Of a stretch of 64,000 bases of DNA, positions 11,201-41,747 are shown one piece after another. Source of the DNA: Thermococcus sibiricus MM 739 (lineage in GTDB: Archaea; Methanobacteriota_B; Thermococci; Thermococcales; Thermococcaceae). Under the pieces are notes generated by a model. That model made no database searches, was not told where the DNA came from, and saw only the letters and a program-made list of their open reading frames with translations. The stretch is taken from assembly GCF_000022545.1 (NCBI RefSeq), contig NC_012883.1, positions 1,170,276 through 1,234,275 on the forward strand. Direction: 5' to 3'. The stretch's first letter is position 1; each line of letters opens with the position of its first letter. Position numbers and translations under genes: made by a program.

Positions 11201-12307
11201 ATGGACTTTATTCCCTACCTAAATTTTTTATCGAGATGGTTACTCTTTCTCGCCGTAGCCTATAAAACAACTAAAACCCGAGAAAAGAGATGGGGATTAA
11301 TAACTACTGCTTTACTTATAAATGCTCTTGATGTAGAGAGCTATATCCTAACTCCTCTCGGTGTTTCTATTAAGTCAGGAGCATATGACGTCGCCGCCAA
11401 AATTCCAAACTTTCTTATAGCCGGCCTGCTGGTTTGGGGAAGCATTCAGTTAAAAAAGGAGAGAAGCGATTTTAAAGACGTTACAATTTTGGGAATATTC
11501 GTTGTTGCTGCGTATATATGGCTCTTCTTATTGGCAAGTGAATTTTTTGATAGATTTGAACATTCGTTTACAATTAAATCCTTGTTTCCCAGCTTTGCCT
11601 TTGGAGCATCTTTTATTTACCTCGGATACACGTTAAGGAGCTATGTAATCTCCAAGAAAACTCTCGAGGAACTCTTTCCCATAGGCCTCATCCTATTAGG
11701 AGCACTAAACCTCACGTATCCATTTACAAGAAACATTCAAGCTATTGCACCAGCAATGTTTCTGCTGGCAGCGATCTTCCGATTAATGGCTGTAATTGGA
11801 GCGTTGAAATTTGCAATATACCCTGCAGCAATATTTGCAAAACCAAAAGAACAAATGCCATCAAAAATTAGAGGAACATTTATGTTCAAGAGCAAAGAAG
11901 AGCTGAAAAAAGCAATCCCAAACTTCTTTGATCAAAATGTCATTATGATAACGAGGGAGCTGCCAAAGGATAAAGTTCCGGAAAATATGCTGGTTTACTG
12001 GCTCACAAAAATGGAAGAAGACACTATAAAAGCGGACGGAAAGATTTATCCGATATCACCAACAAGGATAGACGTTCTGCTCCACCTCCTAACTAAGAAC
12101 CTTGAAAGCGGATACAACGCAGTTTATATTGATGGGTTCGAGTATTTAATGATAGAAAACGGCTTCGATATTGTTATTAAGTTCCTACTCGATCTAAAAG
12201 ATAGAGTATTAAACAAAGGTGACGTTATAACCCTAATAATAGATCCAAGAATCCTAACTGACAAGCAGATGGCCCTTCTAGAAAGAGAATTTGGCAAGGG
12301 AAGGTAA
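11201..12307 (+). CDS. Membrane protein with C-terminal DUF835 domain
   Basis: 368 aa. Residues 1-215 hold about seven hydrophobic helices; residues 225-368 form a soluble DUF835-type alpha/beta domain (for example 'NVIMITRELP', 'YNAVYIDGFEYLMIENGFD'). This architecture is common in Thermococcales; function is unknown, possibly sensing or signalling. ATG 11201, three bases after the GlmU-like stop, behind GGCGATGAGGG: third gene of the operon. A second DUF835 domain lies at 37593-38003 in a broken gene. Confidence 0.75.
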   Translation: MDFIPYLNFLSRWLLFLAVAYKTTKTREKRWGLITTALLINALDVESYILTPLGVSIKSGAYDVAAKIPNFLIAGLLVWGSIQLKKERSDFKDVTILGIFVVAAYIWLFLLASEFFDRFEHSFTIKSLFPSFAFGASFIYLGYTLRSYVISKKTLEELFPIGLILLGALNLTYPFTRNIQAIAPAMFLLAAIFRLMAVIGALKFAIYPAAIFAKPKEQMPSKIRGTFMFKSKEELKKAIPNFFDQNVIMITRELPKDKVPENMLVYWLTKMEEDTIKADGKIYPISPTRIDVLLHLLTKNLESGYNAVYIDGFEYLMIENGFDIVIKFLLDLKDRVLNKGDVITLIIDPRILTDKQMALLEREFGKGR

Positions 12308-12313
12308 AAAAGC

Positions 12314-13486
12314 TCAGAAGCCAAGGTACTCTATAAACCTTCTGGTATGCTTCGTCTCTCTTTGAAGCTCTACTTTTTGAAGTATTTGCCTTTCTATTGC
12401 TCTAATAGCATCATGAACAGCTTGTATTGCCCCCCAGGTCTCTCCTGTGGCCATAAATTGGCCTTTATCCGTTACCAACCTCATTCTAGCTTGGTATAAG
12501 TGTACCCCTCTGAGTTTTTCCGGGAAACGCCTAATGTTTAGATAGATTATCCCCTCGTTTCCAAGCACTTCTTCATATCTATCCACAAACTTTCTAACAT
12601 CCTCAATTATTCTTTCTCTGCTGAAGTCACTCAGATATTGGGCATCTCCCCCAAGTTGTAAATAGAATTTAGCCTTCTTTTCTACCATCCTTGAAATTGG
12701 AAGCAGAAGATCCTTTACAGTCAATACTCCCTTCACAACATTCTCTTGGTTTATAATCACAAGTCCATCAATATCATATTCTTTTATTAGACTGATGGCT
12801 TCTCTAACCATCGTTTCTGGGTATACCGTAATTACCCCTTTAATCATCACATCTCTCAGCTGCATTGAGAATGGAGGTATTTTTTCTCCTGCAACTTCCC
12901 CAAATTGAGCCCTAAATCTTGGCTTTATAAAACGAATTATCAAGTCATGTAATGTGACAAGGCCTTCTAGTTTACCATTTTCATCAACAACAGGAATTCT
13001 GGAAATTGCATAATCCCTCATTGTTGCAAGGGCTTTTGCCACGGTGTCTGAAGATCTAAGGGTAACAACGTCTTTTGTCATGAAATCTTCAACCTTTTTT
13101 TTCCCGAATTCTTCTTTAGCAATCCTTTCCAGAAGGGTTATATCACTTATTACACCTAAAATTGTTTTTTTATCCTTTCCAACAGGAAGTGAACGCAAAT
13201 CAGTCTCAAACATAAGTTTGGCTGCAATGCTTAGGTCCTCGTCTAATTCTAAAATCGGAGCGGTTTTATAAACATCCTTAACCTTAGCTTTGGTTGGGTC
13301 CCACTTCAAGTGGGAGCGAATTATCAAATCTTGGGTTAGGACACCCTTGTATATTTTCCCATCAAAAACTACAATTAAGTCTGGATCTTCCTTCTCAAAA
13401 ATTCCAATCGCCTCAGAAAGCGGGGCGTTTATGTCTATTTTTGCAAATTTTTCTGTCATAACTTCCTGGACAGAAATCCCGACCAT
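12314..13486 (-). CDS. Four-CBS-domain protein with HPF-like C-terminal domain
   Basis: 390 aa. Four CBS repeats are visible, at about residues 3-58, 64-122, 132-190 and 212-268, each ending in the usual G(V/L)(L/V)T-type strand and helix. CBS pairs bind adenine nucleotides. Residues about 285-390 do not look like CBS; 'GQFMATGETWGAIQAVHDAI' followed by 'RAIERQI' resembles the closing part of ribosome hibernation factors (HPF/RaiA, 'AI..a...lErQl.K'). So it may be an energy-sensing ribosome-associated factor; this is inference. The ATG at 13486 has a strong GGAGGTG site; an upstream TTG at 13504 is rejected. Confidence 0.8.
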   Translation of the reverse strand: MVGISVQEVMTEKFAKIDINAPLSEAIGIFEKEDPDLIVVFDGKIYKGVLTQDLIIRSHLKWDPTKAKVKDVYKTAPILELDEDLSIAAKLMFETDLRSLPVGKDKKTILGVISDITLLERIAKEEFGKKKVEDFMTKDVVTLRSSDTVAKALATMRDYAISRIPVVDENGKLEGLVTLHDLIIRFIKPRFRAQFGEVAGEKIPPFSMQLRDVMIKGVITVYPETMVREAISLIKEYDIDGLVIINQENVVKGVLTVKDLLLPISRMVEKKAKFYLQLGGDAQYLSDFSRERIIEDVRKFVDRYEEVLGNEGIIYLNIRRFPEKLRGVHLYQARMRLVTDKGQFMATGETWGAIQAVHDAIRAIERQILQKVELQRETKHTRRFIEYLGF

Positions 13487-13583
13487 TCTTGACACCTCCT
13501 TCAATTATATATTGGTTTTTATTCCATTTAAACCTTTCCGAGATAGATTTTATTTACATTAAGTTAATAAAGTTTTCGACCCT

Positions 13584-14262: not shown

Positions 14263-15537
14263 TCAGTTGAGAACAGCCTCAACAGCCAAGTCTGCTCTAA
14301 CTATGCCATAACCATAGTTGGGATCCCAGTCTGCTGGCCCTATGTCATCTGCGGTTATGTGAAGGATACCCCTGACAGTCCTCTTGTCTGTGTCGTCAAA
14401 GGTCCCAACTGGAAGGACGGTGCTATATTTGGTGTAGTATACCGCTTGAATTAGCGCTACAACTCCGCTAACATGCGGACATGCCATGGATGTTCCGCTC
14501 ATTGTAGCGTAGGTGTCGTCAGGATATGTGCTCAATATGTCAACACCAGGAGCGCTAACATCTACCCCTCTGTTGCTCCACGAGGGTACTTCGTCATTAA
14601 TGTCAATTGCACCAACGGCTATAACCTCTGGATACGCGGCAGGATAACTTGGACTTGATGCGTATTCATTTCCAGATGCTGCCACAATAACGACTCCATA
14701 ATTGTATGCTTCTGTGATCGCATCGTGGAATGATTGAAGATCACTCGAACCGCCAAGACTCATGCTTATTACTTCTGCAGCATCATCGTCTGGATCGCCC
14801 ACTATTATCCCATCTCCCTCACTGTCAAGGACTCCATCAGGTCCTAGTAATGCCTGTTCTATTCCAAGGATTATGTCGCTATACGATCCCCTACCACTTG
14901 CATCAAGAACCCTAACAGCATATATTTCTACAGCCGGAGCAACTCCTACCACTCCAATGTCATTATTGAGTGCTGCTATGGTTCCTGCAACGTGGGTCCC
15001 ATGCCCATTTTGATCCTTGTAATCCTTGGGCTTTGTTGATACCTTCCCTCTAAGAACACTAACTCCCTATGCCAGATTAGCTTTTAAATCTGGGTGATCA
15101 TAATCGATTCCTGTGTCAAGGACTGCAACCTCAATTACTCCTTCACTTGAACCATCGGCTATACTCCACACATTCGGGGCTTTTACCTTTTCAATTCCCC
15201 ATGGAGTTTCTTGAGAGGGCTGTGAGGGCTTGGGCTTACCTACTCCCGGTGGCTTACCTAAAACATGGGCTTCAGCGTCATACTCTACTCTCACAACACC
15301 TTTTGCATTCTTTAGCCTCTCAACGGCTCTAGGTGGTAGCTCTGCAACAACAATGGGAAATATTCTTCCTTTTCCAACAATGTTTCCCCCAATTGCAAAG
15401 ATAGAGTTCTCGTTAAATCCCTTGTCTATTGTTATTATTACTCGAACTTTCTCAGCGGGAACCGCCCCGACTATTCCCGCTGTAGCTTCAAAAATAACAA
15501 AAACCAACAGCAGAGAAAAAACTTTGTTAAATTTCAT
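14263..15537 (-). pseudogene. Tk-subtilisin-like secreted serine protease, interrupted by one in-frame TAG
   Basis: Reads as a complete 424-codon pre-pro-subtilisin close in length to Tk-subtilisin, except that codon 157 (15069-15067) is TAG where the family context suggests TGG (Trp). The same frame continues unbroken on both sides. Signal peptide at residues 1-26, propeptide to about 100, then the protease with catalytic Asp141 ('VLDTGIDYDHPD'), His179 ('NGHGTHVAG'), oxyanion Asn in 'AASGNE' and Ser350 ('GTSMACPHVSG'). Asp-rich calcium-binding loop 'VGDPDDDAAE' kept. Without readthrough the product would lack His and Ser and be inactive. It could be a recent nonsense mutation or a sequencing error. 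Confidence 0.85.
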
Positions 15538-41040: not shown

Positions 41041-41747
41041 AGTCCCTTCCTCTCTATAAGTTTAGTTACAACCGTGCCCTTTGTGAGGGCATTCAGTTTC
41101 TCATAAAATTCTTCTTCAATTCCACCTGGAATCTCAATCAAAAACATCCAAGACCCGTCACTCGCCCATTCTTCTCTTTTTATATTCCCAAATGTTCTTA
41201 CCTCTCCATAAGCCTTTCCACTGTACTCCGATGGTATCTTTACAGCAATTACCTTTGTTTCAATTTTTAACGGTAAGACCCTTCTCAAAGCTTTTATTAT
41301 CTCTGGAACTTGGGCCTGTGCATCTTTGAATATATCCACTCTTACTCCTACCTCTTCCATTGCTTTGAGAATTCTATCAGGGGGGTGAGGATAGCCACTT
41401 CTCGGGTCAACTGCATTCCGATGAATTATCATGGCTATCTGCTTTTTCTTATCTTCAAGCATCTGCTTTCTCTGTTCCGCTGTAAGCTGAACCTCTCCCT
41501 TTCGGAGAATTATCTTTGCGATTTCATAAGGGTCATTTGTTCCAAAAATCTTTTCCATTTCATGTTCACTTGCCTTATCCCCTTTATGAGCATCTTTAAA
41601 AATATAAGGGGTGGCAAGAATTTCTTCAACAGGGAGTTCTTTGCCTTCTTTGAAGTCTCTAGCCAAATATGGATCTACTAGTATTTCAAAAATTTCTCCA
41701 TGTGTCTTCAATCTGGCAATAACTGCTTTATCGATACTCACTGGCAT
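41037..41747 (-). CDS. SBDS/Sdo1 ribosome maturation protein
   Basis: 236 aa, three-domain Shwachman-Bodian-Diamond family. '[20 protein letters not shown]'-type start and '[20 protein letters not shown]' (about 118-137) are diagnostic. Helps release the anti-association factor aIF6 from 50S subunits. ATG 41747; four-base overlap with rrp4. Confidence 0.94.

Follow-up and report, generated by a model that had tools for sequence, protein, structure and literature searches.

We consider it almost certain that the gene at positions 12314-13486 of the analysed stretch of the Thermococcus sibiricus MM 739 genome (64,000 nucleotides, hereafter the window) is an ortholog of hibA and encodes a hibernation factor of idle 70S ribosomes, which by analogy with its counterparts in P. 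abyssi and T. barophilus would bind and protect the ribosome.

The window encodes an ortholog of P. abyssi HibA

The hibA open reading frame lies on the minus strand (13486..12314) and runs uninterrupted over 390 aa from an ATG at 13486 to a stop codon at 12316-12314; the plus-strand reading of the same interval contains 16 stops. It is the one full-length hibA copy in the T. sibiricus genome. When the 390-aa protein was searched against Pfam, four CBS stretches were recognised (PF00571, E 5.3e-41) and no family besides CBS was found, leaving the tail unmatched. Matches to NCBIfam were likewise driven by the CBS part and all remained far below the cut-offs. Comparison with the PDB using phmmer returned chain 9sr9_H, which carries the PDB label 'Dehydrogenase' and aligns gap-free with our protein (residues 1-388 to 1-388, E 1.7e-194). 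The entry 9SR9 is listed as HibA-ATP in the data statement of the study that described HibA (PMC13324472). Identity to P. abyssi HibA amounts to 293/388 residues (75.5%; CBS module 77%, tail 73%), and in the loop of CBS3 that corresponds to the PTC loop (residues 190-207) 15 of the 18 residues are identical. The features of the gene are as follows.

12314..13486, minus strand: hibA, ribosome hibernation factor HibA, 390 aa, four CBS domains and an HPF/RaiA-like domain (ORF, Pfam, alignment to P. abyssi HibA)
12680..13486, minus strand: N-terminal CBS module, residues 1-269, four CBS domains (Pfam PF00571; boundaries by alignment to P. abyssi HibA)
12941..12964, minus strand: CBS3 ribose-binding motif GLVTLHDL, residues 175-182 (sequence motif)
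12866..12919, minus strand: PTC loop, residues 190-207, RFRAQFGEVAGEKIPPFS (identity with P. abyssi HibA and conservation in Thermococcales; role as in PMC13324472)
12707..12730, minus strand: CBS4 ribose-binding motif GVLTVKDL, residues 253-260 (sequence motif)
12317..12679, minus strand: C-terminal HPF/RaiA-like domain, residues 270-390 (AlphaFold, Foldseek, profile comparison, PDB 9sr9_H and 9l96_a by sequence)

The paper describing HibA appeared in Nature Communications on 27 April 2026 (PMC13324472). The P. abyssi protein, in which four CBS domains make up residues 1-269 and an HPF/RaiA domain residues 270-392, was found by cryo-EM on hibernating 70S ribosomes of stressed cells and was present on 75.5% of the hibernating-like 70S particles. 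Its tail occupies the mRNA/tRNA channel of the 30S subunit, its CBS module takes three places on the 50S subunit and its PTC loop reaches the peptidyl-transferase centre. In vitro, HibA inhibits translation; T. barophilus cells deleted for hibA regrow with a delay and contain about 60% fewer 70S ribosomes (all PMC13324472). By this model, HibA would hold inactive 70S ribosomes together, block translation and protect the ribosome until growth resumes. In earlier pull-downs, P. abyssi HibA came down together with proteins of DNA replication and recombination (work cited in PMC13324472), and the protein may thus also have other roles.

A preliminary description of this DNA had read the gene as four CBS domains fused to an HPF-like tail and hence as a candidate dormancy factor, pointing to recent reports that tie CBS-domain proteins to archaeal ribosome dormancy. 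That reading agrees with published HibA, of which the T. sibiricus protein is a 75.5% identical ortholog, and the pointer to such reports was correct; the implied novelty, however, falls away, since the family is known (PMC13324472). The T. sibiricus copy is an ordinary conserved member of it, and only its sequence is new.

The C-terminal domain is a remote homolog of bacterial HPF

No match was obtained when the whole genome was searched with the PF02482 (Ribosomal_S30AE) profile at E<=10, and no sequence reached the curated cut-off. The HPF relation was detected by profile comparison and fold search, which resolves this null result. In a profile-profile comparison with six bacterial HPFs, the HibA tail, represented by a profile of 40 aligned sequences that include the T. 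sibiricus protein's own copy, scored 35.3 (E 1.3e-5, probability 80%); the controls gave at most 22.3 for 200 column shuffles, 12.2 for the reversed profile and 11.9 for the CBS region. We also carried out the structure prediction and the search against HPF/RaiA folds that the preliminary description had proposed. The AlphaFold model of the C-terminal domain reached a pLDDT of 88.4 (confident in 2/5 models, not in 3/5), and Foldseek matched it to 28 PDB structures at E<=1e-3 (best E 1.6e-6). Most of these are named HPF, RaiA/YfiA/protein Y, MPY, RafH or ribosome interface protein; the remaining ones are ribosome or chloroplast-ribosome entries, which we take to show an HPF-type chain. By sequence, the domain matches PDB chains 9l96_a and 9sr9_H. 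The sequence relation of the tail to bacterial HPF is remote, yet real, and the HPF-like tail noticed earlier was borne out by both approaches, with its start near residue 270 and thus a little before the residue 285 first proposed. Architecture, orthology, HPF fold and the conservation of loop and motifs are properties of the T. sibiricus protein itself. Standard annotation (Pfam, NCBIfam) still overlooks its ribosome-binding domain.

Could the tail be vestigial, and HibA mainly a transcriptional or metabolic regulator of the CBS type? In P. yayanosii, similarly laid-out CBS modules do function as the HhpR regulator (PMC13324472), and the NCBIfam HhpR model weakly matches residues 5-181 (46 bits vs a cut-off of 520). 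The tail, however, is conserved like the CBS part (identity of 88% vs 86% and of 74% vs 78% in two relatives), is predicted to fold as HPF and in the ortholog has been seen on ribosomes, with this very domain in the 30S channel (PMC13324472). The same genome moreover encodes a separate 285-aa CBS protein that is the likelier HhpR-type candidate, and we give the regulator explanation almost no credence. This candidate HhpR-type (CM) protein lies elsewhere in the genome (L006:1498-2355) and has a GTG start.

HibA is conserved throughout Thermococcales

Full-length HibA was found in 74/74 Thermococcales genomes with completeness of at least 90% and contamination of at most 5%. Weak or split copies occur in eight genomes (G036, G053, G054, G064, G065, G067, G081 and G082), all of which are less than 90% complete, and the family is thus present and intact in all better-assembled Thermococcales genomes. 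Across the order, the PTC loop (190-207) hardly varies and the ribose-binding motifs of CBS3 and CBS4 are kept. In three genomes of a sister family the homolog has diverged: its open frame spans 394-401 aa and its tail is 24-25% identical. One draft Thermococcales genome (G061) contains two full-length HibA genes (C27 and C28), which may represent either a genuine duplication or contamination.

Nearly all loci examined share the gene order sugar nucleotidyltransferase - DUF835 gene - hibA, with hibA convergent. In the window, the DUF835 gene occupies 11201-12307 on the plus strand; it is convergent with hibA, is its neighbour at almost every Thermococcales locus we inspected and is much less conserved than hibA (34-80% identity). 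The window also holds an archaeal SBDS homolog (SBDS_N part at 41466-41726, minus strand, E 6.2e-29); in P. abyssi, idle ribosomes carry SBDS as a second factor (PMC13324472). A subtilisin-like protease gene at 14263-15537 (minus strand) reads as two ORFs of 156 and 229 aa, as one in-frame TAG at 15067-15069 breaks an otherwise open frame, and is either a pseudogene or affected by a sequencing error.

The upstream region of hibA contains conserved elements

Footprinting across 36 upstream regions revealed the following elements, together with a conserved ribosome-binding site.

13493..13499, minus strand: ribosome-binding site GGAGGTG, upstream of the hibA start (sequence; conserved in Thermococcales)
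13526..13537, minus strand: conserved BRE/TATA-like box AAAGGTTTAAAT (footprint across 36 upstream regions)
13549-13571, minus strand: inverted-repeat-like element TTTATTAAC-N5-GTAAATAAA (conserved upstream of hibA)
13549-13578, minus strand: extended upstream element CGAAAA..TTTATTAAC..TAAA, also CGAAAAnTTTATTAAC...TAAA (footprint across 36 upstream regions)

The box AAAGGTTTAAAT resembles a typical BRE/TATA and is probably the hibA promoter. In most of the Thermococcales that we examined, the element CGAAAAnTTTATTAAC...TAAA precedes the hibA start by about 63-92 bases; the extended element CGAAAA..TTTATTAAC..TAAA may serve as a second promoter or operator. When the genome was scanned for TTTATTAAC-N5-GTAAATAAA, the hibA copy alone matched at <=2 mismatches, and at three mismatches the background was like that of the reversed-pattern control; the scan and its control thus lend no support to a regulon site.

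Adenylate binding and its possible role

A complete ribose-binding motif, GhhTxxD, is found in CBS3 and CBS4 but in neither of the other two CBS domains. This agrees with the P. abyssi module, which binds a single adenylate at its CBS3/CBS4 interface and holds AMP about ten-fold tighter than ATP (Kd 12 µM for AMP, 65 µM for ADP and 113 µM for ATP; PMC13324472). Judging from these motifs, T. sibiricus HibA is likely to bind nucleotide as well; its CBS3/CBS4 interface would probably hold one adenylate, preferably AMP, which may tune the recruitment or release of HibA. A stronger form of the hibernation-factor reading holds that this site is a true energy switch, at which AMP loads HibA onto ribosomes and ATP releases it. 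The confinement of canonical motifs to CBS3 and CBS4 and the preference of the P. abyssi module for AMP would suit such a switch, but native P. abyssi complexes contained no nucleotide, the ribosome-bound states were largely unchanged in reconstitutions with AMP or ATP (PMC13324472), and the CBS3 threonine is missing from diverged class-level relatives. We regard switching by energy charge as unlikely. The earlier term 'energy-sensing' holds for the binding of AMP, ADP and ATP by the P. abyssi protein, and not for an effect on ribosome-bound states, which AMP and ATP hardly changed. Still more doubtful, and in our view rather improbable, is the combination of an AMP/ATP-gated HibA with a regulated two-box promoter in Thermococcales, by which energy charge would set both synthesis and loading. 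The preferred reading remains that of a hibernation factor of idle 70S ribosomes, whose CBS module suggests a link to cellular energy.

Comparison with known systems

The closest known system is P. abyssi HibA itself (UniProt Q9UYR4, Pab0961; PDB 9SR9-9SRF, 9T7H), which belongs to the same length class and shares the four-CBS and HPF/RaiA architecture and the PTC loop; we found no difference in architecture and only ordinary sequence divergence. More remote is the CBS domain-containing protein of PDB 9l96 (406 aa), which is matched in its CBS part as well as in its C-terminal domain (E 3.8e-35 overall; tail alone 3.5e-10). HhpR (CBS module CM-3 family) has the four-CBS module in common with HibA but is a stand-alone transcriptional regulator, and at 46.4 bits the T. 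sibiricus protein falls under the NCBIfam NF053603 cut-off of 520 bits. Dri of Pyrobaculum calidifontis is likewise an archaeal hibernation factor built from CBS modules (PMC13324472); it consists of two fused CBS modules and lacks an HPF/RaiA domain, whereas the T. sibiricus protein has one CBS module and an HPF-like domain and is thus not a Dri protein. Bacterial and plastid HPF/RaiA/protein Y/PSRP1, in turn, share the fold of the HibA C-terminal domain (Foldseek E down to 1.6e-6) at 9-20% identity in the significant structural matches, but carry no CBS module. HibA connects hibernation of the bacterial HPF type with archaea.
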